A program made the translations under genes and the position numbers. Positions 8,909 to 26,052 of a stretch of 64,000 bases of DNA are shown piece after piece (positions within the stretch are counted from its first letter, which is position 1; each line of letters begins with the position of its first letter). Under the pieces are notes generated by a model. The model saw only the letters and a list, made by a program, of their open reading frames with translations, was not told the DNA's origin and made no database searches. The stretch is from contig NZ_CP114039.1 of NCBI RefSeq assembly GCF_026965535.1, positions 4,526,001 to 4,590,000 on the forward strand, in the 5' to 3' direction. The DNA is from Corallococcus sp. NCRR. GTDB lineage: Bacteria; Myxococcota; Myxococcia; Myxococcales; Myxococcaceae.

Positions 8909-8944
8909 GGTGTTGCTCCCGTTGGGGGTTGAGCTGCACCACGA

Positions 8945-8953
8945 AGAAGGGGC
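8945..8953 (-). promoter_or_regulatory. GCCCCTTCT element, distal form
   Basis: On the minus strand, 37 nt upstream of the start of the holin-like gene and without the GGGC partner arm. Confidence 0.6.
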
Positions 8954-8978
8954 GCCCTAGACGCGCGGGGGCGCGGGC

Positions 8979-9854: not shown

Positions 9855-9895
9855 ATAAAATACCCAGCCTCACAACGCCTATCCCAACCCCACCA

Positions 9896-10480: not shown

Positions 10481-10491
10481 ACAGGCATGAC

Positions 10492-10881: not shown

Positions 10882-10888
10882 GCCCCAC

Positions 10889-10897
10889 AGAAGGGGC
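10889..10897 (-). promoter_or_regulatory. Start-linked GCCCCTTCT hairpin
   Basis: The minus strand reads GCCCCTTCTGTGGGGC then ATG: a 5-bp GCCCC/GGGGC stem abutting the start codon. Confidence 0.65.
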
Positions 10898-10903
10898 GGC
10901 GCC

Positions 10904-11385: not shown

Positions 11386-11585
11386 CGCGCGGACTCCGCG
11401 TCCCGGCCGTCGGAGTCCCATCCGAACCAGCCGAGGTGCAGGCGGCCCACGGCCTCCTGGACGCGCTCCTGGGGGATGCCGCTGTCGTACAGGAGCCCAT
11501 CGAGCCACGGAGCCACGGGTTCCAGGGCGCCCACCTCGCGCCCCTCATAGTCCGTCACCGTCATGCGGCCTGGGTGGTTGGTCAT
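11382..11585 (-). CDS. Small hypothetical protein
   Basis: 67 aa from the ATG at 11585, which directly follows a GCCCCTTCT hairpin. It reads MTNHPGRMTVTDYEGREVG, then QERVQEAVGRLHLGWFGWD. No family recognised. It overlaps the next gene by ATGA. Confidence 0.55.
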   Translation of the reverse strand: MTNHPGRMTVTDYEGREVGALEPVAPWLDGLLYDSGIPQERVQEAVGRLHLGWFGWDSDGRDAESAR

Positions 11586-11592
11586 GCCCGGG

Positions 11593-11601
11593 AGAAGGGG
11601 C
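11593..11601 (-). promoter_or_regulatory. Start-linked GCCCCTTCT hairpin
   Basis: The minus strand reads GCCCCTTCTCCCGGGC then ATG: a GCCC/GGGC stem with a CTTCT-containing loop abutting the start codon. Confidence 0.65.
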
Positions 11602-11620
11602 GGAGGCCATCCGTGCCACC

Positions 11621-11839: not shown

Positions 11840-12112
11840 GCCCCTGACGCTGGCGCAGTCGAGGGCGGCCCGACAAGGAGCGTGACACCCAGCCCACAGA
11901 CAGCCCCCTGGGGTGGGAAACCACACATGTAGGATAAATTTAGGATTGCTCGGCGCGCTGCAATCCTGCGCTGCGGAAATCTCCCGGAAATCCCCGGCGA
12001 ACTCTGAGACGACCCCCTGATTTTTTGGCCCCTACGCGTTCCTGGCGGGCCGCTGGCGCGTCTTCTGCGCTCGCACGTGGACGTAGGCGCTCCTCCGCGC
12101 GCGTGCGCTGGC

Positions 12113-12121
12113 GCCCCTTCT
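12113..12121 (+). promoter_or_regulatory. Start-linked GCCCCTTCT element
   Basis: Seven bases before the small-terminase ATG at 12129. CCTTCTGGAAGG is itself self-complementary. Confidence 0.65.
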
Positions 12122-12128
12122 GGAAGGC

Positions 12129-12695
12129 ATGGCCCGCCACCGCGACTCCGGGGCCGAGCGCGAGCCCGACGAGGCCGTGAGTCTCGACCCGCTCCTCAAC
12201 TACCGGCCCCTGGGAAAGCCCGGGCCGGTGACGACGCTGACGCCCCAGCTCGGCGCGCAGCTGTGCCGGCGCATCGCAGCAGGCGACACCCTGCGCGACG
12301 CCGCTGCCGCCGTCGGCACCACGGACACCGTCGTCCAGGGCTGGCGCACGCGCGGCGCCGAGGCCATCGAGCGCGAGACGGAGGACGTCTACACGGCGTT
12401 CGTCATGGAGTACGAGGCCGCCGCCGCGCACTTCCGCCGCGTCCTCCAGGCCTCCGCGATGGAGAACATCGGCAACCGCGCCTTCAACGACAAGTTCGTC
12501 CGCTGGCGCCTAGCGACGAGTGACCCGAAGAACTTCACCCTCCCTCGCACCGCCGGGCCCAGCAGCAGCGACGGCGGCGCCTTCGAACTCGTCACCCCGG
12601 AGGAGGCGCAGAAGACGCTGGCCGACCGGCTGGCGCGGTTCCTCGACAACGAGGCCAAGAAGGCGATGCCGCCTCCGGCGGAGGCGGAGGAGTAG
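12129..12695 (+). CDS. terS: Terminase small subunit
   Basis: 188 aa. An HTH-like N-terminal segment (LCRRIAAGDTLRDAAAAVGTT, then WRTRG) is followed by a helical region EYEAAAAHFRRVLQASAMENIG, the layout of small terminases that bind the packaging site. It lies directly before the large terminase and opens the rightward late operon. It starts at a GCCCCTTCT-preceded ATG. Confidence 0.8.
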   Translation: MARHRDSGAEREPDEAVSLDPLLNYRPLGKPGPVTTLTPQLGAQLCRRIAAGDTLRDAAAAVGTTDTVVQGWRTRGAEAIERETEDVYTAFVMEYEAAAAHFRRVLQASAMENIGNRAFNDKFVRWRLATSDPKNFTLPRTAGPSSSDGGAFELVTPEEAQKTLADRLARFLDNEAKKAMPPPAEAEE

Positions 12696-12697
12696 CC

Positions 12698-12706
12698 GCC
12701 CCTTCT
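12698..12706 (+). promoter_or_regulatory. Start-linked GCCCCTTCT hairpin
   Basis: GCCCCTTCTCGGAGGGC directly precedes the ATG at 12715. It fixes the terminase start and overlaps a GGAGGG Shine-Dalgarno. Confidence 0.7.
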
Positions 12707-12714
12707 CGGAGGGC

Positions 12715-14229
12715 ATGGCCAAGGCCGCCGCTGTCACCGCCGGGAAGGACCTGCTCAAGGGCCTGCCCGTCATCCGCCCGGAGACGCACGGCCGGCACTC
12801 CGTCCTGGATCGGATGGCGTTCCAGCTCCGAAAGGAGTTCGGCACCACCGAGGGCTTCGCGGACAGGCTGGGCCTCTCCACCCAGGAACTGCTCGTCCTC
12901 TACTACGAGCCTGAGTACTCCCTTCGCCCCGCCCAGCAGCCCCCGGATATGGTGTCCGCGGAGTACGCCCGCTGGCGCACCTGGTTCCTCCTGGGGGGGC
13001 GCGGCGCCGGCAAGACACACGCGGGCGCGGCCTCCGTCATCCGCGAGGCGAAGGTAGACCCCGAGGCGCGCATCCTCATCGTCGGCCCGACGTACACGGA
13101 GATTCAGAAGAACCAGCTGGAGGGCCCCAGCGGCATCCTCACCCTGGCGCCCCCGTGGTTCCGCCCCGAGCACCTGAAGTCGAAGAAGCAGCTCGTCTTC
13201 CCCAACGGCGTGAAGGCCGACTACCTGCCGGCAGCCGACGCCGACAAGTTCCGTGGCTACGGCTACACCTTCGAGTGGCTGGACGAGGTGGTGGCCTGGA
13301 AGAAGGACCCCGTCGCCGTCTTCACTGAGTGCGGTCGCGTCGGCCGCGGCACGTCCGCGCGGATGCGGCGGCTGGGCCTCTCCAGTCGCAAGGTCATCAC
13401 CACCACGCCCGCGCCCACGGAGCTCTTCCGCGAGATTCTCAAGCAGCGCCGGGGCCTCGTCCTCTCGCGCTCCAGCACGTTGGACAACAGCGCCCACCTG
13501 GACGACGACTACGCGCTCCAGGCCCTGGACGCGAAGAAGAGCGCCATCGGCCGCCGTGAGTTCTACGGCGAGCTGGAGTTCGACCTGGACCCGGCGCTCT
13601 TCCGAGGCGTGGACTGGAATGCCTCGCGCGTGAAGCCGAAGGACGCGCCATCCGTCTTCGACTTCATCGTGGTGGGCCTGGACCCCGCCACCGGCGAGAA
13701 GAAGGGCGCGGACATGCACGGCATCGTCGTGGTTGGCGTCCGCCGTGAGGAGGACGGGCGCGACCACGCCTACGTGCTCGCGGACCTTTCGCTGAAGAGC
13801 CCGGAGCCTGCGGCCTGGGCGAAGAAAGCCGTGGCTGCGCTCAAGGCGTGGGCGCCTCACGCGAAGAAGGACAGCTCGGACCGGCCGCGGGCGTGGATAT
13901 TCGCGGAGACGAACACGGGCGGCAGCATGGTGACGTCCACCATCCACACGCTGGAGAAGGTGAAGGTGCTCACCGAGCGCGCGCGCAACTCGAAGGCGGA
14001 GCGTGCCGCGCCCGTCTCCATGCTCGCGGCGGCGGGACTCGTGCACATGGTGGGCAAGCACGAGAAGCTCGAGGAGCAGCTCGGCAAGTTCACCGGGGCG
14101 CCCGGCGGCCACGCGCGGGATGATCGCGTGGACGCCATGGTGTGGCCCATCTACAAGCACGTCGTGAAGATGCGGAGAAACATCGGTGCGGCCTCGGGAT
14201 CCTCTCAGCCCGACGACATCACTGAATGA
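12715..14229 (+). CDS. terL: Terminase large subunit
   Basis: 504 aa from the ATG at 12715; a longer frame is open upstream, but it lies over terS and the leader element. Walker A LLGGRGAGKT is at about residues 92-101 and Walker B FEWLDEVVAW about 95 residues later. The nuclease part shows FIVVGLDPATG, AWIFAETN and HARDDRVDAMVW acidic positions. It drives ATP-dependent DNA packaging and cuts the concatemer. Confidence 0.93.
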   Translation: MAKAAAVTAGKDLLKGLPVIRPETHGRHSVLDRMAFQLRKEFGTTEGFADRLGLSTQELLVLYYEPEYSLRPAQQPPDMVSAEYARWRTWFLLGGRGAGKTHAGAASVIREAKVDPEARILIVGPTYTEIQKNQLEGPSGILTLAPPWFRPEHLKSKKQLVFPNGVKADYLPAADADKFRGYGYTFEWLDEVVAWKKDPVAVFTECGRVGRGTSARMRRLGLSSRKVITTTPAPTELFREILKQRRGLVLSRSSTLDNSAHLDDDYALQALDAKKSAIGRREFYGELEFDLDPALFRGVDWNASRVKPKDAPSVFDFIVVGLDPATGEKKGADMHGIVVVGVRREEDGRDHAYVLADLSLKSPEPAAWAKKAVAALKAWAPHAKKDSSDRPRAWIFAETNTGGSMVTSTIHTLEKVKVLTERARNSKAERAAPVSMLAAAGLVHMVGKHEKLEEQLGKFTGAPGGHARDDRVDAMVWPIYKHVVKMRRNIGAASGSSQPDDITE

Positions 14230-14362
14230 GCAGTCTTGACCACTGCACCTAACCCAGGCCTTGTTTTGCGTGGTCTGCCGGACGCCATTCAATATCCGAA
14301 GGACTCCGTGCATAGCGTGGGCAGGCGCATTCACTGAGTGCCGCCCAGCCGTGGCTACGTAG

Positions 14363-15013
14363 CTACTGGCAGAGGTTCTGTGTGTAAGACGACATACAGC
14401 TGTAATCGAGAGACTTGACGACGCCCACCTTCATCGGGAATCCCGGAATGAAGAAATAGAAATCATCCCTGAAGGAGCTGTTACATGTTTCGCCTGCTGG
14501 AACCATTCCGGTGCATACGCCTTGGAAAATCTTTTGGAGTTCCAGCGCGGCATTCTCTTGGGCTTGAGCCCCGGTAAACCCTATGCCTGCTGCCTGAGCA
14601 GCGTGTCTTGCCGCCTCGCAATAGGGGACCGTGCGGTCCGAGTCCGGTGGACGTGGGTCCGGTCGGAAGTTGGGAGGCATGGTCTCGCACCCCTCTATGC
14701 CGTTGTGAAGCGAGAGGATGCGAGCCTTGCCGGCGGAGTCTCTACCCGTAAAGAAGACGTAATTGCATCCGGTCCACGTCCATGAGGCGGGAACGGCGAG
14801 GTGGAGGTTGGGATACTCGGAGGAGCTTGAACTTGGCGGCTTGATCCACACGTACCCTGGCGGCGTCGACGTGCATGCTGTGGGTTGAAGGATAAAATAT
14901 CCTTGACCGAAGGGATTGTCGGTGCCGTTGGTTAGGTAGCATTCGCATGCCGCCTGAGCACTGCGAGAGACGCCAAGGACTGCGAGGACTGCGAGTAGTG
15001 CTGTGGGACGCAT
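14363..15013 (-). CDS. Secreted cysteine-rich protein (antisense accessory gene)
   Basis: 216 aa. A signal peptide (MRPTALLAVLAVLGVSRSAQA) is followed by a mature part with ten cysteines, enough for five disulfides, and an unusual Ser/Pro patch (KPPSSSSSEYP). It has no phage-virion features. It lies on the opposite strand between terminase and portal, a pair usually adjacent, so it is probably a lysogenic-conversion gene expressed from its own promoter. No family recognised. Confidence 0.7.
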   Translation of the reverse strand: MRPTALLAVLAVLGVSRSAQAACECYLTNGTDNPFGQGYFILQPTACTSTPPGYVWIKPPSSSSSEYPNLHLAVPASWTWTGCNYVFFTGRDSAGKARILSLHNGIEGCETMPPNFRPDPRPPDSDRTVPYCEAARHAAQAAGIGFTGAQAQENAALELQKIFQGVCTGMVPAGETCNSSFRDDFYFFIPGFPMKVGVVKSLDYSCMSSYTQNLCQ

Positions 15014-15094
15014 CGGCTGGGCCTTCCGGAAAAGGGGGCTGCGCGCTCGCTTCTATCACGCAACCCCTGGCGTTCTTCCGAAGGTCCCTCTAGC

Positions 15095-15103
15095 GCCCCT
15101 TCT
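15095..15103 (+). promoter_or_regulatory. Start-linked GCCCCTTCT hairpin
   Basis: GCCCCTTCTCCCAGGGC directly precedes the portal ATG at 15112. Confidence 0.7.
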
Positions 15104-15111
15104 CCCAGGGC

Positions 15112-16476
15112 ATGGCCTCTTTCCTCTACCGCGTTGCCAAAGCGCTCGGCCTCGCGCCGGGCCCAAAGGGCGGCACACAGCAACTCGTGCATGCACTGCC
15201 GCTCATCAGCTTCAGCCCGCGCCGCGGCAGCCGCGCGGTACTGCTGGCCTACGAGGAGGACGACTGGCTGCGCACCGTGGTGGACACGGTGGCCGACGCG
15301 GTGGCCACGCCCCGCTGGCGCGCATTTAAGCGCGTGCGCCCGGGCGAGAAGCGGATGGATCCGCGCTGGAAATCGCTGGACGCAGCGGAGCGTCGCAAGG
15401 CCCTGGCCGATTCCACGAAGCGCGGCGACCTCGTGGAACTGGAGGCGCACGAGGTGCTCACCCTCCTGGAGGCGCCGCACCCGCGCTTCCCCGGGCGAGA
15501 ATACCGGAAGCTCGCGCAGGTCCACGTGGACCTGGTGGGCGAGGCCTTCCTGGTGCTGGTGCGCGGCGCGGACGGCCGACCTGTGGGCTGGGAGGTGGTG
15601 CCGCCCCACTGCGTGACGATGACGCCCGTCCCTGGGCGGCCCAGCTTCTACATCGGCTACCAGCAGTACCAGGGCTGGGTGCCCGAGTCCGACGTCCTCT
15701 GGGTGAAGACGCTCGCGCCGGCGGACCCCGAGGGCCGGGGCGCCGGGCGCGGCATCGCGCTGGGGGACAAGCTCGACACCGTGGAGGCCATCGACAAGGC
15801 GACGAAGGCTACCTTCGAACGCGGCGGCATCCCCGCCGCCATCGTCGGCCTGGGCAGCAAGAACAACGACGACGGCAGCACCACGGGCGAGGCCGCCGAG
15901 GACATCCAGAAGAAGTTCAACGCGGAGTTCCGCGGGCCGCAGAACGCGGGAAAGGTGTGGTTCGCCCCCTCGGACGTGACGCTCGCCCAGGTGCAGGTGA
16001 ACTACCGCGAGTTGCAGGCGAAGGAGCTGGGGGCGAACCTGCGCGCGTACGTCCGCCAGGCCTTCAGCGTCCCGCCGGAGCTGGTGGGCGACCTGACCTC
16101 CAGCAACCGCGCGGCGTCGGAGTCGGCGAAGTACCACCTGGCGGAGTACGCGGTGGCGCCCCGGTTGGAGTTCTGGCGCTCCTGGTATCAGTTGCGCCTC
16201 GTGCCGCTGCTCGACCGGGACGTCATCCTGGACTACGAAGACCCGCGCCCGCAGGAGTGGGAACGCACCTTCCGCGCGATGACGACGCCGCCCACGGAGG
16301 GCGTCACCTGGAACGAGTGGCGCCGCTTCGCAGGCCTGCCGCCGCTGCCGGAGTTGGAAGGCAAGCGCCCCTCGCCCATGCCCGGCGCGGGTGGGGGCAA
16401 TAGCGTGGAGTCCGCTGCGGCGAACGCCACGCCCAACCCGCCGCGCGACCGCAGTGGCGAAGAGGGCCGGGTGTAA
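15112..16476 (+). CDS. Phage portal protein (HK97 family)
   Basis: 454 aa, normal for HK97-type portals. Visible features include the wing/stem pattern around VDLVGEAFLVLVRGADGRPVG, the KATFERGGIPAAIV and FGPQNAG-like region, and the conserved LRAYVRQAFSVPPELVGD, then SAKYHLAEYAVAPRLEF near the C-terminus. It forms the dodecameric ring at one capsid vertex through which DNA passes. It stands between terminase and maturation protease. Confidence 0.9.
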   Translation: MASFLYRVAKALGLAPGPKGGTQQLVHALPLISFSPRRGSRAVLLAYEEDDWLRTVVDTVADAVATPRWRAFKRVRPGEKRMDPRWKSLDAAERRKALADSTKRGDLVELEAHEVLTLLEAPHPRFPGREYRKLAQVHVDLVGEAFLVLVRGADGRPVGWEVVPPHCVTMTPVPGRPSFYIGYQQYQGWVPESDVLWVKTLAPADPEGRGAGRGIALGDKLDTVEAIDKATKATFERGGIPAAIVGLGSKNNDDGSTTGEAAEDIQKKFNAEFRGPQNAGKVWFAPSDVTLAQVQVNYRELQAKELGANLRAYVRQAFSVPPELVGDLTSSNRAASESAKYHLAEYAVAPRLEFWRSWYQLRLVPLLDRDVILDYEDPRPQEWERTFRAMTTPPTEGVTWNEWRRFAGLPPLPELEGKRPSPMPGAGGGNSVESAAANATPNPPRDRSGEEGRV

Positions 16477-16488
16477 CTCGCGAGGGGC

Positions 16489-16497
16489 GCCCCTTCT
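16489..16497 (+). promoter_or_regulatory. Start-linked GCCCCTTCT hairpin
   Basis: GCCCCTTCTTCTTGGGC precedes the ATG at 16506. It argues against the in-frame TTG at 16500 as the start. Confidence 0.65.
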
Positions 16498-16505
16498 TCT
16501 TGGGC

Positions 16506-17621
16506 ATGCGCAAGCCCACCCGCCATCAGAAGCTGCTCAGCGCCGCCACGCCCGCCGAGGGCGCGGCCAGCGCCCCCATCTTCCGCATCACCTCGCCCAA
16601 CCTCGACAGGCACCGGGACCGTGTCCTCGCCGTGAAGTCCGAGGGTGAGGGCGCGGAGGTGCGCGTTCCGCTTCTCTGGGAGCACAACAGTTGGACGCCC
16701 GCCATCGGCTTCGCGCGCTGCTACCGCGAGGGCGACGCGTGGGTGATGGCGCCCGTCTTCGACGAGGTGGACGAGCTGTCCAAGACGGTGGCCGGCAAGG
16801 TGAAGGCGGGCTCCCTCTTCACGTGCTCCATCGGCTTCTCCCCGGTGGAGGAGCCGGTGCCCAACGCCGAGGGCGGCTTCGACTATCCGATGGTGGAATT
16901 GCTCGAAGTCTCCATCGTCAACGTGCCCGCCAACGCGGACGCGGTGCGCCTGCGCTCGGCGGGTACGGGGCGGGGCCGGCCCAACCTGGGCGCCGCCCTC
17001 AAGGCGCTCGTGGCCAGCCAGGCCGCCGTGCTCGCGGTGCTGAAGGCCGAGGGTGACGCGCCAGAGGACGTGGATGAGCCCGACGAGGAGTCGCCTCCGG
17101 AAGGTGAGGACAAGGCCGTCGGCGACGAGAGTGAAGCCCCGGGCAGGCTGACGCCGCAGGGCTTTGCGGAAGGGCTGCTGGCCCACCTCCAGGCCGGCGC
17201 GCAGATGGTGGCGGACTTCCTCGCGGACGCGGATGGCCTCGTCGGCGGCGAGCACGACTTGCTGGTGTGGGTGGCGGAGGGCGCGAAGGCGAGCTTCGAC
17301 CAGAGCATCAGCGACCTGGAAGCGTACCTCTCCGGCGAGGAGGCGGAACTGCCCGCCGACGGTGAGGAGCAGGCGGCGAGCGCCTCTGACGACGAGGGCG
17401 TCGAGGCCTCCGAGGAGGACTTGGAAAACAGCGAGGAACCGGAGGACGGCGAAGCCCTGCCCGACGAGGAGGCCGCCTCCGAGGTGTCCGAAGACGAGCC
17501 CACCGAGGAAGAGGCGAAGGCCCTGCGCCTGCGCGTCCGCAAACACCTCGGCTTCTCCGTCGAAGCGGTCGCTGCCCTCACGGGTGGCGAGCTCCGCCGG
17601 TACGCCGCGCTCACCGCATAG
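16506..17621 (+). CDS. HK97-type prohead protease with acidic scaffold-like extension
   Basis: 371 aa from the ATG at 16506. The first about 150 residues carry the protease signature: NLDRHRDRVLAV, LLWEHNSWTPAIGFA with the catalytic His, LFTCSIGFSPVEE with the Ser, and LLEVSIVNVPANADAV. The remaining about 200 residues are dominated by Glu/Asp runs and predicted helix, like a fused scaffold or delta domain. The protease matures the capsid shell; the acidic part may guide assembly. Confidence 0.88.
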   Translation: MRKPTRHQKLLSAATPAEGAASAPIFRITSPNLDRHRDRVLAVKSEGEGAEVRVPLLWEHNSWTPAIGFARCYREGDAWVMAPVFDEVDELSKTVAGKVKAGSLFTCSIGFSPVEEPVPNAEGGFDYPMVELLEVSIVNVPANADAVRLRSAGTGRGRPNLGAALKALVASQAAVLAVLKAEGDAPEDVDEPDEESPPEGEDKAVGDESEAPGRLTPQGFAEGLLAHLQAGAQMVADFLADADGLVGGEHDLLVWVAEGAKASFDQSISDLEAYLSGEEAELPADGEEQAASASDDEGVEASEEDLENSEEPEDGEALPDEEAASEVSEDEPTEEEAKALRLRVRKHLGFSVEAVAALTGGELRRYAALTA

Positions 17622-17625
17622 GGCC

Positions 17626-17634
17626 GCCCCTTCT
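17626..17634 (+). promoter_or_regulatory. GCCCCTTCT element, distal form
   Basis: Four bases after the protease stop and 34 nt before the capsid ATG. No GGGC partner arm. Confidence 0.6.
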
Positions 17635-17668
17635 TCCTTTCCAACCTCTTGCAGCAACTGGAGCCGTC

Positions 17669-18934
17669 ATGCCGAACCCCGCCACGAAGCCCACGCCGAA
17701 GCCCGCCGCGCCCAACACCCCTGCCGCCCGCACGCGTACCGCGCCGCCGCCTGCGCGTACCGCCGTGGCTCCGGCGACGCCCGCCGCCCTGCCCGATGCA
17801 CTCCAGCGCGCGGTGGATGCCGCCGCGGTGAAGGCCGTCGAAGCCGGCTTCGCCTCGCGTCCCACTCCCGCCCCTGTCCAGGGCCCTGTCACCTCCGGGG
17901 CCAAGGACCTTCAGATGGACCCGCCGACGGGTTGCGAGGCCCAGGCGCGCATGGGGGTGCGCCTCAAGGCGCTGTACGTGCAGAGCGCGGAGCGGCTGAA
18001 CATCGCGCACCGGCCGGGCATCGAGAAGCTCAAGTCCTACGTCGAGCGTTGCAAGTCGGTGGGCATCTTCGCGGGCATCTTCGAGCAGGGTGGCGCGCTC
18101 TACTCGCGCGAGACGCGCTCCGAGGAAGTCATCGAATTGCTGCGTGCGGACGCCATCCTCCTGTCGGCCGGCGCGCGCACCGTTTCGGGCTACGGCGGCA
18201 AGTTCACCGTGGGCCGCATCAACCAGGGGCCGACCGTCTTCTGGGTCGGCGAGGGCCAGCCGCCGGCGAAGTCCGACATGAAGACGGGCGCGGTGGAGCT
18301 CGGTGCGCACAAGGCCATGGCCCTGGTGCCCATCTCCAACGACACGATGCGTCTGGGCAACAGCACCGCCGCCGCCGACGTCGGCCGCGAGGTGTCCCAG
18401 GCCATGGCGCTGGAGGTGGACTTGGCGGGCCTCTACGGCAAGGGCGCGAAGAAGCCCACGGGCATCTTCGAATTGGTGCCCAACGGCAACAAGGCGGCCA
18501 TCACCGGCACGACCATCGAGCAGATTCGCAACGACCTGAAGATGAAGCTCATCAAGCCCGTCACGAAGTCGAAGCTGAAGCTGGCGGGCAACCAGGCCTT
18601 CTACTTCATGGACTCGTCCAATCACCTCTACCTCTCGGAGTTGCGCGACTCCGCCGGCTACATCTTCCCGGGCCTGTCGGACTTCGAGAATCCGCGTCTC
18701 AACGGCTTCCCGGTGAAGGTGACGGAGTCGATTGCGGACCTCGGCCACATCGGCTTCGGGCTGGCTTCGCAGCTCTACTACGGCGAGGCCTCGGAGCTGG
18801 AGGCGACGGTGGGTGAGGCATCGGGCGACTTCGAGTCGGACCAGATGACGCTGCGGATGGTGTGGGAGGGTGACTGGGCCCTGCGCCACCGGCAGTCCTT
18901 CGCCTTCCTCACGGGCGCCACCTACGGCTCGTAG
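17669..18934 (+). CDS. Major capsid protein (HK97 fold)
   Basis: 421 aa. A low-complexity Pro/Ala/Lys N-terminus (about 60 residues) probably forms or precedes the cleaved segment. The fold-typical stretches follow: FGVGRI-like strand KFTVGRINQGPTVFWVGEGQ, then LVPISNDTMRLGN, MALEVDLAGLYG, PTGIF and a C-terminal GYIFPGLSDFENPRLNGFPV. The order protease then capsid is standard. No separate scaffold gene is seen, consistent with the acidic tail on the protease. Confidence 0.88.
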   Translation: MPNPATKPTPKPAAPNTPAARTRTAPPPARTAVAPATPAALPDALQRAVDAAAVKAVEAGFASRPTPAPVQGPVTSGAKDLQMDPPTGCEAQARMGVRLKALYVQSAERLNIAHRPGIEKLKSYVERCKSVGIFAGIFEQGGALYSRETRSEEVIELLRADAILLSAGARTVSGYGGKFTVGRINQGPTVFWVGEGQPPAKSDMKTGAVELGAHKAMALVPISNDTMRLGNSTAAADVGREVSQAMALEVDLAGLYGKGAKKPTGIFELVPNGNKAAITGTTIEQIRNDLKMKLIKPVTKSKLKLAGNQAFYFMDSSNHLYLSELRDSAGYIFPGLSDFENPRLNGFPVKVTESIADLGHIGFGLASQLYYGEASELEATVGEASGDFESDQMTLRMVWEGDWALRHRQSFAFLTGATYGS

Positions 18935-18942
18935 TCCGCGCC

Positions 18943-18950
18943 GCCCCTTC
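18943..18950 (+). promoter_or_regulatory. GCCCCTTC element, distal form
   Basis: Lies 8 nt after the capsid stop and 21 nt before the next ATG. Confidence 0.5.
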
Positions 18951-18971
18951 AACCCTCCTCCTGGAGACACC

Positions 18972-19406
18972 ATGCACCCGACGCGCAACGACATCGGCGC
19001 CTACATTCACGCCGCCAACCTCTCGCACGCTCCGGCGGCCAACGCCGCGGGCACGCGCAACGGCGCCGCCCTCACGTTCGGCACCTACCGCAGCCTCGTC
19101 CTCAGTGTCGCCACCGGCGCGGCGACCGGTACCCCCACGGCGGTCTCCGCCACGTACAAGCTCCAGACGAGCGCGGACGGCACCACCTGGGCGGACGCGA
19201 AGGACCGGGACGGCGATGCGGTGAGCCTCGCCGCCACCACCGCGAGCACCGCCGCGGAGCTGGACGTGGACCTCCAGGAGGTGGTGCCGGACGGACACGA
19301 CCGCATCCGCTTCGTGGAGACGGTGGCCTTCACCGGCGGCTCCACGCCGACGCTGCTGAGCGGCGCCACCGTCATCTTCGGCGGAGGCCAGACGCTTCCC
19401 GTGTAG
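18972..19406 (+). CDS. Putative capsid decoration or head protein
   Basis: 144 aa with a good Shine-Dalgarno (CTCCTGGAGAC) before the ATG. Ala/Thr-rich beta-type sequence (YRSLVLSVATGAATG, YKLQTSADGTTWADA, IRFVETVAFTGG) suggests a beta-sandwich. Its position right after the capsid gene suits a decoration protein. No specific family recognised. Confidence 0.6.
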   Translation: MHPTRNDIGAYIHAANLSHAPAANAAGTRNGAALTFGTYRSLVLSVATGAATGTPTAVSATYKLQTSADGTTWADAKDRDGDAVSLAATTASTAAELDVDLQEVVPDGHDRIRFVETVAFTGGSTPTLLSGATVIFGGGQTLPV

Positions 19407-19492
19407 CGGCGGGCACGCATTCCCCCTCCGTGCCTGCCCGGGCCGGGGTGGCCTCGTGCCGCCCCGGCCTTCTTTCTGCCCCGAGGTGCCCC

Positions 19493-20149
19493 ATGCCCGC
19501 CGTCGAGGACCTGCTCACCGCCGCCCAGTTGCCCGCCAACGTGCGCGACGCGGCCGACCCCGAGCGTCTGCCTGTACTCATCACCGCCGCGTCCCTGGCC
19601 CTGGCCGCGCACGTGGGCTACCCGCTGCACCGCCGAGTGGGTGTGGAGGAGTCTGTCGCCAGCGCGGGCGGGCGTTACCTCTGGCTGCGCTCCGGCGGCG
19701 TGCGCCAGGTGACGCGCGTCGCGGTGCGCGGCGTGGAGCTGCCCGCCACCGCCTACGCGCTGGAGTCCGTCTTCATGGGCCGCGTGGTCGCGCGCGGCGA
19801 GGCGTGGCCCTTCACCGGCACCTGGTCCCCGGGCGTGTCCTCCACGCCGCTGCACGTGGAGGACACGGGCGCCCTCGTCGTCACCTACGACGCGGGCTGG
19901 GTGACGCCCGGCCAGGCGGCCCTGGACGGCACGCTGCAGGTGGACCTGCCGGCGGATCTCCAACTGGCGGCGCAGATGGTGGTGGGCGCGCTGGTGCACG
20001 GGGACGGCGCGGAGGAGGCCGTCTCCGAGTCCATCGGCGGCACGTCCCTGACGCGCGCCACGGACGAGGACGGGCAGCTGCCCGCGGTGCCTGCCCGCGC
20101 ACGGCGCTTGGTGGCCCGGTACCGGCGCCCGCGCCAGGGGGCGGCGTAA
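19493..20149 (+). CDS. Head-tail connector (adaptor) protein
   Basis: 218 aa from the ATG at 19493. The N-terminal segment LITAASLALAAHVGYPLHRRV is typical of HK97 gp6-like adaptors, which start with helices and an aromatic-Pro motif. The C-terminus has LQLAAQMVVGALVHGDG, then a Ser/Thr region and a basic tail. The start overlaps nothing; the stop overlaps the next ATG by TAATG. Confidence 0.7.
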   Translation: MPAVEDLLTAAQLPANVRDAADPERLPVLITAASLALAAHVGYPLHRRVGVEESVASAGGRYLWLRSGGVRQVTRVAVRGVELPATAYALESVFMGRVVARGEAWPFTGTWSPGVSSTPLHVEDTGALVVTYDAGWVTPGQAALDGTLQVDLPADLQLAAQMVVGALVHGDGAEEAVSESIGGTSLTRATDEDGQLPAVPARARRLVARYRRPRQGAA

Positions 20150-20469
20150 TGCTGCTGGGCCACCGCCTCAAGCAGCGCTTCGGCCTCGCGCGCCTCCTGG
20201 GTGTCAACGACCGCGGGCAGGAAGACTTCTCCGCGCCCACCGTGCACGCCTGCCGCTACGAGGGCAGCACGAAGCGCCTCGTCACCTCCGACGGCACCGA
20301 CGCCACCTCGGAGGCCATGCTCTTCACGACGGTGAAGGTGGAGCCCGGGGACGCGCTCTGGCTGCCCGGCGATACCCCAGGCGACCTCAACACGCGGCGC
20401 CGGCCGCTGCGCATCACCCCCTGCACGGACATCCGCGGGGACACGGACCACTACGAGGTGTACGTCTGA
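20149..20469 (+). CDS. Head closure/stopper-like protein
   Basis: 106 aa, start overlapping the upstream stop by 1 base. Beta-rich small protein (HACRYEGSTKRLVTSDGTDATS, FTTVKVEPGDALWLPG), consistent with the small stopper proteins that follow the adaptor in siphoviruses. Assigned by position and size. Confidence 0.6.
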   Translation: MLLGHRLKQRFGLARLLGVNDRGQEDFSAPTVHACRYEGSTKRLVTSDGTDATSEAMLFTTVKVEPGDALWLPGDTPGDLNTRRRPLRITPCTDIRGDTDHYEVYV

Positions 20470-20873
20470 TGGGTGCCGAGCTGCGCGACGTGGAACTCCA
20501 CGTGGCCGAGGTGCTGGACGCGGCCGGCCTGGGCATCTCACGGACGTCGTCCCCGCCCACCCTCTACCGGGGGCCCTGGCCCGGCTCCGCGCCGGCCCGG
20601 ATGGTGGCGGTGCGCGAGGTGTCGGGCGACGGCCCCGAGGACTACATGGGCACCGGCCGCAGCTATCTCCAGCCGGACGTGCAGGTGCTGGCGCGCGCCC
20701 TCACGTACGCGGACGCCCAGGCCCTGGCTCGCCGGTGCTGGAGCGTGCTGCACCTGGCGGCCGTGCCCGGCTACGTCAGCTGCCGATGCGAAGGCGCGCC
20801 CGCGTACATGGGGCCGGACGACAAGCAGTGGCACCGCTTCAGCTTCACCGTCACCCTGGCGTACGCGGGCTGA
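20469..20873 (+). CDS. Tail terminator/completion-like protein
   Basis: 134 aa. ELRDVELHVAEVLDAAGLGIS at the start and YVSCRCEGAPAYMGPDDKQWHRFSFTV-type strands at the end fit the minor capsid or tail-completion proteins found at this map position. It starts 1 base into the previous stop. Confidence 0.6.
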   Translation: MGAELRDVELHVAEVLDAAGLGISRTSSPPTLYRGPWPGSAPARMVAVREVSGDGPEDYMGTGRSYLQPDVQVLARALTYADAQALARRCWSVLHLAAVPGYVSCRCEGAPAYMGPDDKQWHRFSFTVTLAYAG

Positions 20874-20885
20874 CGCGAGCTGGGC

Positions 20886-20894
20886 GCCCCTTCT
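20886..20894 (+). promoter_or_regulatory. Start-linked GCCCCTTCT element
   Basis: Precedes the ATG at 20904 by 9 nt. The partner arm is only GG here (CACCGGAC). Confidence 0.6.
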
Positions 20895-20903
20895 CACCGG
20901 ACA

Positions 20904-21343
20904 TGGCCGTCAAGGTGAAGGTGGAACTCCAGCCGCTGCTCAAGCTGCGCCAGCGTGCGCCTGACGTGCTCGCCGCGCTGGACAAGCCCATGCGCGAATT
21001 CTGCCGCCAGACACTGAGCATCTCGCAGTTGGGCGTGTCGCGCAGCGAGGTGGAGTACGACGAGAGCGGCAACGAGGTGCGCACCGGGACGCCCTTGGTG
21101 AACACGACCTTTATCGACGGTCCGGAACACCACCTCGACCGGCGCCTCTCATCCACCTGGACGGCCGGGTACGACCACCCGGCGGCAGGCGCCATTCACC
21201 AGGGGTTTCACTGGGGCGAGGAGCGCATCAGTCCGCCGCCCCTTTTCCTCAAACGGGCCTTCAAGGTCACGCGCTCCATCGGGCGTGCCGACATCAAGAA
21301 GGCCGTGCAGTCGTACCTCAAGAAGATCCTCCCTCCGAAGTGA
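20904..21343 (+). CDS. HK97 gp10-like head-tail joining protein
   Basis: 146 aa. Opens MAVKVKVELQPLLKLRQRAP and ends LFLKRAFKVTRSIGRADIKKAV with a lysine-rich tail, the usual pattern of gp10-like neck proteins where the C-terminal helix has LxxAF. Its place between the completion-like protein and the tail tube supports this. Confidence 0.6.
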
Positions 21344-21356
21344 AAGGCATTGCCTC

Positions 21357-21785
21357 ATGGCTGAACCCCAGGTCCTCTACGCCCAGAACCTCCACTTCGC
21401 CTCGACGTCCGCCGCCGTGTTGGGCCCGACGACGCTGCTCGACGGCGTCTCCGAGTGCTCCGTCTCCACGGCCATCGACAGCGTCGACGCCAACTACTAC
21501 GGCAGCGACGGCTACAAGAAGAACCTCACCACGCTCCGCGGAATCACCATCAGCGTCAGCGGCCACCGTCACCGGGGCAACGCCGCGCAGGACCTGATGG
21601 AGTCGCTCGTCGCGACGGGGGTGGTGGGCTACCTGACCATCATCCGGGACGCCGCCGCGGAGGAGGGTGAGCAGGGCCTGCGCTACGCCGTGCGCGTCAT
21701 GTCCTTCGACTCCGGCGGCCCGTCCTCCGACGTGGACAAGCTGACCGTCTCGCTCACCGGCCAGGGCGCGCCCGTCCCGGTGTAG
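21357..21785 (+). CDS. Major tail tube protein
   Basis: 142 aa from the ATG at 21357. The beta-type sequence (NLHFASTSAAVLGPTTLL, LRGITISVSGHRHRG, VDKLTVSLTGQGAPVPV) is typical of siphovirus tube subunits. It immediately precedes the chaperone pair and tape measure, the invariant order in siphophages. Confidence 0.72.
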   Translation: MAEPQVLYAQNLHFASTSAAVLGPTTLLDGVSECSVSTAIDSVDANYYGSDGYKKNLTTLRGITISVSGHRHRGNAAQDLMESLVATGVVGYLTIIRDAAAEEGEQGLRYAVRVMSFDSGGPSSDVDKLTVSLTGQGAPVPV

Positions 21786-21787
21786 TC

Positions 21788-21795
21788 GCCCCTTC
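21788..21795 (+). promoter_or_regulatory. GCCCCTTC element, distal form
   Basis: Two bases after the tail tube stop and 34 nt before the next ATG. Confidence 0.45.
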
Positions 21796-21829
21796 CTCCA
21801 TCCACACATCTCCACCGGAGAAGGCAGAC

Positions 21830-22222
21830 ATGAGCGACGTCCCGCAGTATCGCAAGCCCATCGGCACCGCCCGGAAGTTCATCAAGCGCATCGCCATTGA
21901 CGGCGCGGACTACGACCTCTGCGAGCCGTCGGCGGGCGACAAGACCCTCGTGCTGAAGTTGAGCGAGAAGGCTGGGGAGATTGACGCGAGCCGCAACCCC
22001 GTCAACGAGGACGCCGGCATCTACTTCCTGGCCCGCGTCGCCATCGCCTGCCTGTACCACCCGGGCGGCCGGCGCCGTGTCTTCGACCTGGCCAACCAGG
22101 AGGACCTCGAAGCGGTGAAGCTGGAGCCCTGGTTGATGGAACACGCCAAGGACTTCACCTCCGGCTTCGGTGGCAAGACGGTGGAGGAGGAGAAGGGAAA
22201 CTCCGAAGCCACCCCGAGTTGA
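21830..22222 (+). CDS. Tail assembly chaperone, zero-frame product (G-like)
   Basis: 130 aa with GGAGAAGG before the ATG. A small mixed alpha/beta protein (GTARKFIKRIAIDGADYDLCEP, FDLANQEDLEAVKLEPWLM). Near its end the heptamer GGGAAAC (22195-22201) is in the phase that allows a -1 slip into the downstream frame. The order tube, chaperone pair, tape measure is that of lambda G and GT. Confidence 0.8.
   Translation: MSDVPQYRKPIGTARKFIKRIAIDGADYDLCEPSAGDKTLVLKLSEKAGEIDASRNPVNEDAGIYFLARVAIACLYHPGGRRRVFDLANQEDLEAVKLEPWLMEHAKDFTSGFGGKTVEEEKGNSEATPS
22195..22201 (+). promoter_or_regulatory. -1 programmed ribosomal frameshift site GGGAAAC
   Basis: The codons are AAG GGA AAC, so G GGA AAC fits X-XXY-YYZ. 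After a -1 slip the frame runs GGG AAA CTC and stays open through the ATG at 22222 into the next ORF. Confidence 0.82.
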
Positions 22223-22449
22223 TGGCCATCTACGGGGTGGCGACGATGATGCACTGCTCGCCCGATGAGGTGCGCTCTTGGCCCTGGTCCGACGTCGTGC
22301 GCCTGATGGCATACAACGCGCTGGCGCGTGAGGAGTTTGACCGGCGCGTCCAGCGGAACCCCGCTGCGTCCCACCACGCGTCCACGAACGGCCCCAGCAC
22401 CACCACCACCGTCTACCGCTTCGGCTCGTCGGTCGCGCCGAAGAGGTAG
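22222..22449 (+). CDS. Tail assembly chaperone, frameshift extension (T-like)
   Basis: 75 aa if started at the ATG 22222 (TGATG overlap), but its main product is probably the fusion with the preceding gene made by the -1 frameshift at 22195-22201. It reads MAIYGVATMMHCSPDEVRSWPWSDVVRLMAYN. The fusion would be about 215 aa. It precedes the tape measure gene, as the T part does in lambda. Confidence 0.8.
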   Translation: MAIYGVATMMHCSPDEVRSWPWSDVVRLMAYNALAREEFDRRVQRNPAASHHASTNGPSTTTTVYRFGSSVAPKR

Positions 22450-22473
22450 GCCGCAGTCCCTCTTGGAGTCGCC

Positions 22474-25173
22474 GTGGCCCTGAAAGTCGGAGACCTCTAC
22501 GTCGCTGTCACTGCGTCCATTGGCGAGGCCGTGGCCAACCTCGGCAAGCTCGTGAAGCACGCGGAGAAGGTCGCCAAGAACGTGAAGGAGGCGACCGAGC
22601 CCATCGGGAAAATCGGCGCCGTCGTCGCCGCTGGTATCGCTGCCGCGGTGGCTGCCTCTGCCGAGTCCAACGCGGCCATGAAGGAGCAGACCGAGCGCAT
22701 CAAGGCGCTGCTCGTCACCCTCGCAGCCGAACTCGGCGACCTCTTCGCACCGCTGGTGAAGAAGGTCGCACACGTCATCGAGCAGGTGGTGGCGAAGCTC
22801 CAGTCCATGTCGCCCGAATCGAAGCGCGCAGCGGCCTCCATGGCGGCGTGGGTGGCCGGGCTGGGCCTCGGCATCGGCGCCGTGGGCAAGCTGGCGGGCA
22901 CCATGGAAGGCCTCTTCAAGGGGTTCGGCATCTTCCTGGAGATGAGCCGCTCCGTGCTGCCCGTTTTCACCCACCTGGGCGTGGGCGCGGGCAAGGCGCT
23001 TCAGTCCCTCCAGACGCTGGCCCAGGTGGATATCGGCAAGGCGCTGGCCGGCATGAAGTCCGGCGTCGGCGGACTGGGCTCCGCGGTGGCGGACTTCACG
23101 ACGTCAGTCCCATCCCTGCTGGGGAGCGTCGGGCGGATAGCCGTCAGTTTCGCGACTGCCGCCATTCCCATCCTGGCCGTCGTCGCTGCGCTCGCGGGTA
23201 TCGCCCTGCTCGTTGGCAGCGTCTACAAGTCGTGGGGGGACATCAAGTACCTGGCCAAGGACGCATGGGGAGCGATGTCTCAGTCGGTCTCCGAGATGAT
23301 GGCGGGAATCTCCGACGTCGCCATGAAGCTGGCCAACATCTTCGGGCTCGCCTTCAGCGCTCTCTCCGCCACCGTCGAGTCGATGGTGGACCGCTCCCTC
23401 GACTTCGTCGCGTTCTTGGTAGCCAAAAGCGCAAGCGTTCTCCGTCCTATCGCTCGAGCGGTCGGCATGGGCAACGCAGATAAGGCGTTGGCCTCGGCGG
23501 AAACCCTCACCGGCAAGGGGTTGAAGAAGGGGATTATGGAGGCGCTCGCGGCCGGGGGGAATGCGTTCGTCGAGAAGGCGGCCAAGGCGACAGCAGAGCT
23601 GAACAGGGGCGCGGTGCTCATTGCCACGAAGGCGGCTGACGGCGCGAAGGCGGCAGCCAGCGCCGCGAAAGACACGGTGGGCTTCGGCCTGGAGCACTCC
23701 CTCTCCGGCATTCAGGACATCGTCGCGGCGGTCCTCAACTCGAAGACGGTGGAGGAGTGGAAGGGGAAAATGGGGGAACTGAAGGCCCTGCTCGACTCCC
23801 TCTTCAGTGGTGACGCGAAGGCGGCCTTGCGCACCGGCGCCGGGGATGAGAACGGCATCGAGGTGTCCGCGGCAGGCCACAAAGGAATGGAGCGTTTCGC
23901 GGAGCGGCTCCGCGGCGGACTGGCTTCGCCGGCCATGGAGGCCTACGCCAAGGTGATGGAGGACAACGCCAAGGCCCTCGCTGAGTCCATCCGCAAGGCC
24001 GCAGAGGAAGCTGCTGCTGCTGCTGCTGCTGCGAAGGCGGATCTCCTCTACGGCTTCCTTGGAAGGCTGGGCGAGATCAGCGGCATCATTGATTCTGCGA
24101 AGAAGGGATTTGAGGCAGGCGGTTGGTGGGGCGCACTTCTGGCTGCCATCGGCGAGTTGGTCATGGGGTCCGACGAGATGGCGGCGGCCATCGACGTCCT
24201 CAACGGCATCATCAAGATGTTGAAGGACATGTTCGGCGCCGCGGCCACCGGACTCGACACGGTCATGGGGGCTGTGGGCTACCTCGTGTCCGTGGTCGTT
24301 GAGGTCGTGCAGCCGACGATGGAGGCGATGGGTGAGGCCATGGAAGGCATCGCACCCATCATCGTCCTGGTGGGCATGGTGCTGAAAATGCTCGCACCTG
24401 CGTTCCAGGCCATCGGCAAGGCCACGGCGTGGCTGCTCGACAACGTCCTCAAGGGCCTGTTTCAGGTGCTGCGCTACGTGGCCATCGCCATCCTCTACGT
24501 CATCAAGGGGCTGGGCAGCGCGTGGAACGGCATCGTCTCCGCCATCCAATGGGTGTTCAAAAAGCTCGGCGACATCTCCATCTTCGGCGCGCACCCGCTC
24601 GGCTTCCTCAAGGGCTGGGCCAACTCAATGGAGAGCGCGAAGGTGGACACGGAGTCGCTGGCCCGGAGCATCCAGGAACTGGAGGGCCTGACGTGGGACG
24701 CGGCCATGGCCAAGGCCCGGGAGACGGCCGAGGTGTTGAAGAACCGGGACGCGCTGGAGGATGTCAACGAGGCGCTCTCCAACGTGCCTGACCTCTGGAA
24801 GGTGGCCCTCCGCCGCTTTGATTCGCAAGACGAGCAGGACGGACCGAACACCGCCCCCGGCACGCAGCCCTCGCCCTCGCCGAGCACGCCTCCGACGCCT
24901 CCCCCCGAGGTGCTGCCGCCCGTCAGCCGCGACGGCGGTGCTCCGTTCGTTGTGGGCGGTCCGATGCAGCAGGTGCTCGACCGCATCTTCGGCGGCGCCA
25001 ACGCGGCTGGGACCGCCAACGCCGCGGCGATGCCGCCCGTCCAGTACAACATCACCGGCTTCGACCTCTCCGACGCGATGGCGCAAGCCCGGCAGGACTA
25101 CGAGGACCGGCAGCGGAAGGCGGGCCTCCGCCTCTACGGCACGACCGCCGCCGTCGCCGGACGCTACACGTAG
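22474..25173 (+). CDS. Tape measure protein
   Basis: 899 aa with a GTG start. Long Ala/Lys-rich helices alternate with hydrophobic segments (AIPILAVVAALAGIALLVGSVY, then GYLVSVVVEV and AIAILYVIKGL). The C-terminus is a Pro/Ser/Thr-rich linker and a short beta tail (YNITGFDLSDAM). Its length sets tail length; by the usual proportionality this predicts a medium siphovirus tail. A GCT codon run (24010-24030) encodes a poly-Ala helix. Confidence 0.9.
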   Translation: MALKVGDLYVAVTASIGEAVANLGKLVKHAEKVAKNVKEATEPIGKIGAVVAAGIAAAVAASAESNAAMKEQTERIKALLVTLAAELGDLFAPLVKKVAHVIEQVVAKLQSMSPESKRAAASMAAWVAGLGLGIGAVGKLAGTMEGLFKGFGIFLEMSRSVLPVFTHLGVGAGKALQSLQTLAQVDIGKALAGMKSGVGGLGSAVADFTTSVPSLLGSVGRIAVSFATAAIPILAVVAALAGIALLVGSVYKSWGDIKYLAKDAWGAMSQSVSEMMAGISDVAMKLANIFGLAFSALSATVESMVDRSLDFVAFLVAKSASVLRPIARAVGMGNADKALASAETLTGKGLKKGIMEALAAGGNAFVEKAAKATAELNRGAVLIATKAADGAKAAASAAKDTVGFGLEHSLSGIQDIVAAVLNSKTVEEWKGKMGELKALLDSLFSGDAKAALRTGAGDENGIEVSAAGHKGMERFAERLRGGLASPAMEAYAKVMEDNAKALAESIRKAAEEAAAAAAAAKADLLYGFLGRLGEISGIIDSAKKGFEAGGWWGALLAAIGELVMGSDEMAAAIDVLNGIIKMLKDMFGAAATGLDTVMGAVGYLVSVVVEVVQPTMEAMGEAMEGIAPIIVLVGMVLKMLAPAFQAIGKATAWLLDNVLKGLFQVLRYVAIAILYVIKGLGSAWNGIVSAIQWVFKKLGDISIFGAHPLGFLKGWANSMESAKVDTESLARSIQELEGLTWDAAMAKARETAEVLKNRDALEDVNEALSNVPDLWKVALRRFDSQDEQDGPNTAPGTQPSPSPSTPPTPPPEVLPPVSRDGGAPFVVGGPMQQVLDRIFGGANAAGTANAAAMPPVQYNITGFDLSDAMAQARQDYEDRQRKAGLRLYGTTAAVAGRYT
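24010..24030 (+). repeat. (GCT)7 codon repeat in the tape measure gene
   Basis: Seven GCT triplets in frame giving poly-Ala after EEA. Unusual because GCC/GCG dominate elsewhere. A possible slippage site. Confidence 0.8.
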
Positions 25174-25183
25174 CGTCCGGCCC

Positions 25184-25192
25184 GCCCCTTCT
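25184..25192 (+). promoter_or_regulatory. Start-linked GCCCCTTCT hairpin, clearest copy
   Basis: GCCCCTTCTGGAGGGGC directly precedes the ATG at 25201: a 6-bp GCCCCT/AGGGGC stem with a TCTGG loop. Confidence 0.75.
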
Positions 25193-25200
25193 GGAGGGGC

Positions 25201-26052
25201 ATGGCCTATCTCACCCTCAGCGGCATCGAGGTGCGGTGTTCAGCGTCGAAGGGGCTCACCCAGAAGCCCACGTTGCGCGGCCCGCGCGTGCGGACCTTCA
25301 GTGGATGGGCGCAGAGCGGCACCCGCTCGCGCGACTTCATCTGGTCCGGCGGGACGCCGCCGATGCCGATGGCGGATGCCCAGGCCCTGCGGCGACTCAT
25401 CGACGGTGACGGGCACTCCTGGTCCTTCGAAGCCAACGGCGACACCGGGTTGGTGAGCAGCAAGGGCCTCGCCGCGACGGTGGTGGGTACCGTCGGAGTG
25501 GGGCCCGGCAGCTCCACGCCCCACTTCGGCACCGGTGGCCTGGTGCTCGCGGCCGGCGCTTCCGTCACTTGGGCCACGGCCACCACGGGCAACTACGTCG
25601 CGGGCGCCTGGCTCAAGGGCGCCTTCAGCGCGGGCGTCTGGCAGCACGTCGTGGTGGCCCCATGGGCCGACAGGACGTGGCTCAACGGGGAGGAGTGGCT
25701 CGCGTACGGAGACCTCGAGGCGGATACGCTCATCGGCCTGGGCGTGGGGCTCCGCGCCCCAGGCGCATTCACCATCTCCAACCACCCCGGCGCATCAGGT
25801 CCGCTGGACTGCGATGACCTGGTCCTCCTGCCGTACGGCGTGCCGGAGTCGTGGGTGCCGCAGTGGGCCGCCGCCGCGACGCCCTTTGGCCCGCTGCCCT
25901 ACCACCGCGCGGACGGTACTGGCATCCCCGGCCCCTTCCAGGTGCTGGGGCAGGCGGGCGACGCGCAGGCCGTGGAGTACGACGAGGGCGGCGCGAGGGT
26001 GCAGGGCCAGTACATGGACTTCGAGTTGTGGCAGCAGCCGGAGGCCGCCTGA
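25201..26052 (+). CDS. Tail-tip protein with lectin-like character
   Basis: 283 aa. It reads as a beta-sandwich (HSWSFEANGDTGLVSS, VWQHVVVAPWADRTWLNGEEWLAYGD, FTISNHPGASGPLDCDDLVLLPYG), like distal tail or LamG-like carbohydrate-binding modules. It lies between tape measure and the large tail protein, where distal tail proteins sit. The stop overlaps the next start. Confidence 0.65.
   Translation: MAYLTLSGIEVRCSASKGLTQKPTLRGPRVRTFSGWAQSGTRSRDFIWSGGTPPMPMADAQALRRLIDGDGHSWSFEANGDTGLVSSKGLAATVVGTVGVGPGSSTPHFGTGGLVLAAGASVTWATATTGNYVAGAWLKGAFSAGVWQHVVVAPWADRTWLNGEEWLAYGDLEADTLIGLGVGLRAPGAFTISNHPGASGPLDCDDLVLLPYGVPESWVPQWAAAATPFGPLPYHRADGTGIPGPFQVLGQAGDAQAVEYDEGGARVQGQYMDFELWQQPEAA

Follow-up and report, generated by a model that had tools for sequence, protein, structure and literature searches.

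Introduction

Late promoters of phage T4 consist of one element, a TATAAATA box. Both T4 (gp55) and SPO1 (gp28 and gp34) encode sigma factors that serve middle or late transcription by directing the host polymerase to those genes (PMC9429907). We describe here a short repeated element, C[G/A]CCCCTTCT-N-GGGC-ATG, in a prophage of Corallococcus sp. NCRR; the DNA analysed, called the window throughout, is the whole 64,000-nucleotide (nt) stretch at positions 4,526,001 to 4,590,000 of contig NZ_CP114039.1. We propose that this element is a late promoter read by sigB, a sigma factor encoded by the phage itself, and judge from the sequence evidence that this reading has a probability of roughly 80%. 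As in T4 and SPO1, a sigma-70-family phage protein would redirect the host polymerase, and copies stand at many late genes; like a T4 late promoter, each copy apparently has a single element. Unlike those systems, the phages here are temperate prophages of Myxococcaceae, and the element is GC-rich and placed at the start codon.

Placement at the start codon has a parallel in leaderless genes, whose -10 box lies about 12 bp before the start according to the cited sections of a survey of the Zheng et al. type (PMC3160421). The element occupies the matching position, which supports a promoter geometry, and its close-range genes likewise mostly lack a Shine-Dalgarno (SD) sequence; the box in those sections of the survey is TANNNT, whereas here it is CRCCCCTTCT and is tied to a phage sigma factor. 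One paper describes leaderless transcripts as frequent in phages (PMC5312081). A second comparison is with the start-associated sequences (SAS) of Cluster K mycobacteriophages, which contain AGGAG, lie in the non-structural half of the genomes and are thought to act in translation (PMC3203893, in part); their SD core is also described in part of PMC12699233. The terms 'sigma', 'promoter' and 'late genes' are absent from the text of a review of Myxococcus phages (PMC6070905). Searches among open-licence PubMed Central papers brought up no title about a sigma-driven, start-linked promoter in myxobacterial prophages.

Results

A start-linked element repeated before late genes

We identified 10 copies of the 9-mer GCCCCTTCT in the window, against 0.72 expected, and none of 100 shuffled sequences reached 10. 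All copies are confined to 8945-25192. The consensus is longer than the 9-mer, which is preceded by an invariant C and alternates between G and A at its first base. The resulting exact 10-mer, C[G/A]CCCCTTCT, has 11 copies in the window, every one within the same interval, and eight of the 11 end 7-8 nt upstream of an ATG. Sixty first-order Markov sequences contained 0.35 10-mers on average (maximum 2) and no ATG-linked copy. The same eight starts were picked by a codon-usage gene caller blind to the motif.

Close-range copies precede, in the rightward direction, the genes for the small terminase, the large terminase, the portal and a protease-like protein and the genes at 20903 and 25201, and, in the leftward direction, two further genes. 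Distant copies lie upstream of the major head gene, the genes at 18972 and 21830, the NlpC/P60 gene and the gene at 8908. The individual sites are as follows.

12112..12131, plus strand: 10-mer CGCCCCTTCT, 7 nt to the ATG of the small-terminase gene (12129-12695)
12697..12717, plus strand: 10-mer, 8 nt to the ATG of the large-terminase gene (12715-14229)
15094..15114, plus strand: 10-mer, 8 nt to the ATG of the portal gene (15112-16476)
16488..16508, plus strand: 10-mer, 8 nt to the ATG of the head-maturation-protease-like gene (16506-17621)
17625..17671, plus strand: distant class, 10-mer, 34-nt leader with GGAG, ATG of the major head gene (17669-18934)
18942..18974, plus strand: distant class, one-mismatch 10-mer CGCCCCTTCA, leader with GGAG, gene 18972, without the pyrimidine-purine step described below
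20885..20905, plus strand: 10-mer, 8 nt, GGAC arm, ATG of gene 20903-21343
21787..21832, plus strand: distant class, one-mismatch 10-mer CGCCCCTTCC, leader with GGAG, ATG at 21830
25183..25203, plus strand: 10-mer, 8 nt, ATG of gene 25201-26052; strongest possible stem, -12.5 kcal/mol
11583..11602, minus strand: 10-mer (11602-11593), 7 nt, ATG of leftward gene 11585-11382
10879..10898, minus strand: 10-mer (10898-10889), 7 nt, ATG of leftward gene 10881-10492
9819..9828, minus strand: 10-mer CACCCCTTCT upstream of the NlpC/P60 gene, whose start was called at 9815, with relatives pointing to a later one (distant class)
8906..8954, minus strand: distant class, 10-mer (8954-8945), 36-nt leader with GGAG, ATG at 8908

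Positions 1-7200, which hold methylase, replication-initiation, helicase-loader and nuclease genes, contain no exact 10-mer; the one-mismatch copies at 4388, 5480 and 6014 are on the minus strand, against the direction of the genes there. The element is repeated before late genes and has no exact copy before early genes, late and early being assigned by gene content rather than expression. Across the whole genome (9.79 Mb) the 9-mer occurs 156 times, so that the 10 copies in the 64-kb window are about 10 times its share. The extended pattern GCCCCTTCTN{2,5}GGCATG occurs eight times in the genome, seven of them in the prophage and one at 9387112, and the reversed-pattern control does not occur. 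At the last place (L196 7131 and 7771; G000:C1 ~9387112), one exact and one one-mismatch element stand before small phage genes, beside a transposase-like open reading frame (ORF); this is probably a prophage remnant in the host genome.

An earlier reading of the window from its letters and ORFs (the sequence-only reading) had drawn attention to the 9-mer, and much of its description was borne out: the enrichment, all eight start-linked sites (one start lying at 20903, not 20904), an orientation that follows the genes on both strands, the absence of exact copies from the replication genes, and distant copies at 17626 and 8945, together with those at 18943 and 21788, which have the last base changed. 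Nor is the 9-mer equally common elsewhere in the genome, given its excess in the window. The distance to the ATG had been put at 7-9 nt; it is exactly 7 or 8 and never 9. The report of a stem at seven of the eight sites was roughly right: a GGGC arm is present at six, the gene at 12129 has GGC, and at 20903 the arm is GGAC and the fold has 2 bp (-0.7 kcal/mol). The stem called clearest, at 25184-25200, is the strongest. The invariant C, the G/A alternation and a further exact 10-mer with A at 9828-9819 (minus strand) are additional features.

The element in related prophages

The full element was identified in 35 of 193 genomes (its own included); 31 of the 35 belong to the same family, and 19 hold 3 to 14 copies. 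We retrieved 40 loci (L158-L197) and called their genes without the motif, which yielded 682 starts with upstream sequence; since these take in host flanks and homologous genes, the sites are not independent. The 9-mer (at most one mismatch) lies 7 nt before 48 of these starts and 8 nt before 76, and 6 or 9 nt before none, the same spacing as in the window. The loci had been selected for GCCCCTTCTN{2,5}GGCATG; this pattern leaves the ATG free to lie at 5-8 nt and imposes GGC wherever it was used for selection. Three findings do not depend on that choice: 37 one-mismatch copies at 7/8 nt (with none at 6 or 9), the invariant preceding C and a distant class of sites. The 122 distinct close-range sites in related Myxococcaceae prophages yield the consensus C[G/A]CCCCTTCT-N-GGGC-ATG; C precedes the 9-mer in all 122, and the block before an ATG at distance 8 is G (0.89), G (0.86), G (0.91) and C (0.97).

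In the distant class, the 10-mer lies 15-60 nt upstream of the start. SD-like 4-mers accompany 13 of the 122 close-range starts, 46 of 64 distant-class starts (a set that includes some miscalled close-range sites) and 250 of 494 other starts. Removal of duplicates and of sites with an ATG 7/8 nt on leaves 46 distant-class sites, 40 of which have a pyrimidine-purine (YR) step at offset 6/7 or 7/8, compared with 7-29 for other offset pairs (p = 3e-7, assuming independent sites and a null of 0.5). At close-range sites, C|ATG sits at this same 7/8-nt place. A start-site-like step thus stands at one distance from the 10-mer, with or without a start codon. Separately, one distant-class leader (L161 5491-5540) was seen by eye to carry a hairpin, GCGTGGTGC...GCACCACGC, between the 10-mer and the SD sequence.

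The candidate promoter reader, sigB

The element is present in 21 of 21 genomes with a sigB match at E<=1e-60, a cut-off chosen after seeing the gap from 6e-62 to 7e-24, and in 14 of the 172 others. At E 1e-6, 32 genomes pass, and the 11 weaker ones include three with the element (G011, G154 and G182). Across 20 prophages, the families found in at least 17 are 15 from the window block 12129-28463 and sigB, the only one from outside the head-tail block. No other non-virion family occurs in more than 11 of the 20. In three cases (G061, G075 and G083a), sigB was missed by blastp and recovered by profile. The gene and a site upstream of it lie as follows.

29208..30128, minus strand: sigB, sigma-70-family protein, proposed promoter reader
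30440..30449, minus strand: one-mismatch 10-mer CGGCCCTTCT that may serve in feedback, followed by an ATG 8 nt on and lying 321 nt upstream of sigB

Region 2, which functions in core binding and -10 recognition, was found by Sigma70_r2 in 14 of 14 family members (best 1.5e-6), and region 4, a helix-turn-helix, by Sigma70_r4 in five of 14 (best 1.7e-4). The sigB-family profile matches RpoS in the PDB at 6e-12, and also SigA, FliA and RpoH; the alignments to RpoS and FliA extend through region 4. A structure model of moderate quality (predicted local distance difference test, pLDDT, 69.6; predicted template-modelling score, pTM, 0.42) has sigma factors as its top Foldseek matches, at a TM score of about 0.3. 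Of the named genomes that have sigB, Corallococcus sp. AS-1-6 is the nearest (92% identity), and a search of 50,697 phage records gave no sigB match at E 0.01. Mx8, checked for both, has neither the 9-mer nor a sigB match.

Thirteen sigB loci, that of the window among them, were checked for such a site. Four have one, in the form of a 10-mer (at most one mismatch) that is followed by an ATG after 8 nt and stands 189-813 nt upstream of sigB on its strand. These upstream copies suggest a possible feedback of sigB on itself. Near sigB in the window, a gene at 31589-32455 (minus strand) encodes a protein without a Pfam match that occurs in 11 of the 20 prophages.

Sister prophages with other sigma factors and other candidate promoters

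Portal matches fall into two tiers, one at 48-100% identity (nearly all in element-bearing genomes) and one at 38-42%. No close-range exact copy occurs in the 44 loci that were drawn from the second tier or adjoin it, several of which are flanks of one prophage. These sister prophages (L265, L266, L271, L285-L323) resemble the first type in having their own sigma-70-family gene and a promoter-like element just before start codons. They differ in the element itself, which is GTCCCCATAAA or CACxCATTTA, and in a conserved, -35-like GAGCCA upstream. One pattern, T2b (GAGCCA...GAA...CACxCATTTA), has 41 distinct sites, 30 with an ATG or GTG 5-12 nt on; the other, T2a (GAGCCA-like...GGAAAG..GTCCCCATAA), has 14 distinct strict sites, 14 of 14 start-linked. 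The T2b and T2a patterns occur 42 and 53 times in 454 kb of sister loci, compared with 1 and 8 times in 724 kb of first-type loci.

The sister prophages yielded 34 ORF hits to sigma-70-family genes, counting duplicates, fragments and split ORFs; G166 (L324) gave no hit. A tree of 36 sigma factors places the 16 of the first type in one clade (support 1.0) and the nine T2a sigmas in another (0.92); the 10 T2b sigmas group with one sigma without a recognised promoter. Sequences kept out of the tree were L133 and L177, which are partial, the distant L045, second-tier fragments, split ORFs (G001, G059 and G007) and duplicates. Second-tier promoter labels were assigned by majority before the tree was made, and six T2b loci (L265, L289, L292, L296, L303 and L308) hold one stray T2a match each. 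The start-linked promoters split as the sigma tree splits. Of all the evidence, this parallel change of promoter and sigma most strongly supports the predicted recognition by sigma, with the common descent of phage lineages remaining as a confounder.

Discussion

A proposed late promoter read by sigB

The motif, its spacing, the SD pattern, the YR step, the linkage to sigB and the different promoters that go with different sigmas are seen in the sequences. From them we infer that sigB binds the element and initiates transcription there; the mRNAs would be leaderless and expressed late. For host RNA polymerase with sigB, C[G/A]CCCCTTCT would act as a -10-like element; no -35 is visible, and transcription would start 7-8 nt downstream of the 10-mer, at the YR step. 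Where a start codon lies at that point, the mRNA would begin at or next to the AUG and so be leaderless, which the geometry fits and which is probably the case at the close-range genes. Where the gene start is further downstream, the mRNA would have a leader with an SD sequence. In this proposal, close-range sites have a fixed spacing and no SD because the mRNA begins at or next to the AUG. A late-promoter motif was among the functions that the sequence-only reading had offered, and it is now well supported by the sigB link, the YR step, the SD pattern and the sister promoters with different sigmas. A phage late sigma with its own promoter class is a known kind of system; the one proposed here would be unusual in its GC-rich single element and its placement at the start codon.

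Several observations weigh against this proposal. The window's own sigB matches Sigma70_r2 and Sigma70_r4 at scores below the Pfam cut-offs (20 versus 24 bits and 17.9 versus 24.1). A -10-like element rich in C and G at most places is unusual, and no -35 element is visible in either sub-group of sites, which counts against the proposal since sigB has region 4. The YR step is missing from three of the four NlpC-type leaders in the YR count (L164 10172, L159 538 and L161 3873), from L170 11575, from L189 and from the window site at 18972. The GGGC block typical of close-range sites is largely missing in the distant class and is therefore not simply part of the promoter; candidate reasons for its retention at close range are a discriminator, start-codon context or a stem. 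The linkage also has exceptions: G011 and G086, at three element hits apiece, lack a strong sigB match, and G076, with a 67% portal, has one one-mismatch site and no sigB match. At L302/L321 (G061:C1:5312000-5343000), which holds a sister sigma gene, a promoter was sought by eye and none was recognised, L321 being the case that tells against the proposal. Finally, the linkage may reflect the common descent of phage lineages.

Other explanations

The alternative that survives best, at low odds, is an RNA one: pairing of the GCCC and GGGC arms in the mRNA would mask the AUG or expose it, and the stem would be the target of a protein or of the ribosome. At least three pairs are predicted at 111 of the 122 sites, the GGGC block accompanies close-range starts, and the native energy lies below that obtained with letter-shuffled 3' arms (0 of 300 shuffles reach it). 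The letter order of the 3' arm therefore matters, which fits a conserved GGGC block or a stem alike. Covariation is lacking within the class: of the 15 sites with A as their first base, 13 retain the opposite C. For every arm pair the observed compensation count is within shuffles, so that the compensatory changes in the GCCC/GGGC arms raised by the sequence-only reading were not found beyond chance. Further, 3' arms exchanged among sites fold as well as native ones (58 and 108 of 300 exchanges reach the native mean for the two spacings), a simple stem offers no partner to the TTCT or to the conserved C that precedes the 9-mer, the distant class has the 10-mer without the arm, and an Rfam search of window 1-36000 gave no match.

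Exchange of arms between classes was mixed overall. When given 3' arms from T2b sites, element 5' arms fold less well than with their own (0 of 300), and T2b arms fold slightly better with their own partners than with element arms (8 of 300); T2a arms fold worse with their own partners than with element or T2b arms (300 and 299 of 300). At least three pairs are predicted at 21 of 30 T2b sites, with a mean of -2.5 kcal/mol versus -5.5 for element sites. A stem as the main function is not supported. The translation switch that the sequence-only reading had also offered is unlikely to be the main role of the element, which may act in the RNA in addition.

Marginally less likely than the RNA explanation is a binding site for another phage activator or repressor overlapping host promoters; a protein-binding site was the third function that the sequence-only reading had offered. 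A conserved, gene-oriented and partly inverted sequence would suit such a regulator. Two features, the YR step and the constant 7/8-nt spacing before the start codon, instead indicate a core promoter, no host-type -10/-35 accompanies the element in the alignment, and the prophages share no second non-virion family as widely as sigB.

A start-associated translation signal like the Cluster K SAS is clearly less probable again. Both are short asymmetric repeats a few nt before many ATGs, in the position of a ribosome-binding site, with outer GGG/CCC-like symmetry and many copies in a comparable layout (PMC3203893, in the sections cited). The likeness to Cluster K seen by the sequence-only reading holds for this layout and not for the SD core or the gene set, since the element precedes virion and lysis genes. 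Considered as an SAS (GGGATAGGAGCCC with an SD core), the element has no AGGAG, and the SD-like 4-mers at close range number 13 of 122. Distant copies lie upstream of a separate SD, the fixed-distance YR step has no obvious role in translation, and the promoter type changes with the sigma clade.

A gene-boundary sequence kept for recombination between phage modules, suggested by copies between genes, can be all but dismissed, as the orientation follows the gene, the distance to the start codon is exact to one base and recombination gives no reason for a change with the sigma clade.

Other features of the window

A second sigma-like gene closes the early operon and was first favoured as the reader for its place before the late region.

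6495..7175, plus strand: sigA, second sigma-like gene, last before the late region; not motif-linked in all relatives

The sigA protein matches Sigma70_r2 at 27 bits, above the cut-off of 24, and has clear homologues (E below 1e-9) in six other relatives only. It was rejected as the reader because element-bearing genomes such as G004 and G009 have no sigA match. Two repeats were seen by eye: tandem CGGGCACGAACATGTCCAGTTCGC copies inside the gene called at 11116-11385 (window about 11140-11220), and a direct repeat, GCTTCGGCACCCCACGACTCAC, in two copies about 160 bp apart (about 7608-7635 and 7768-7795), between the early and lysis genes.

Implications

A broader picture of the late programme can be drawn tentatively, at somewhat less than even odds. 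Much of it would consist of individual leaderless mRNAs, made from a promoter without an AT-rich -10 or a -35 that is set on gene after gene, and sister phages would have changed sigma and promoter together. In read-through mRNA the element may fold over the AUG, so that only sigB-started messages would be translated.

If the promoter proposal is true, these prophages would offer a compact natural set of sigmas and promoters (three promoter types and three sigma groups) in which to dissect promoter recognition. The start of transcription would be the start of translation, gene by gene, in a phage, and the question would arise of how polymerase melts a promoter in which most bases are C or G. 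The element would also predict the transcription start sites and start codons of late genes for a group of myxobacterial prophages.

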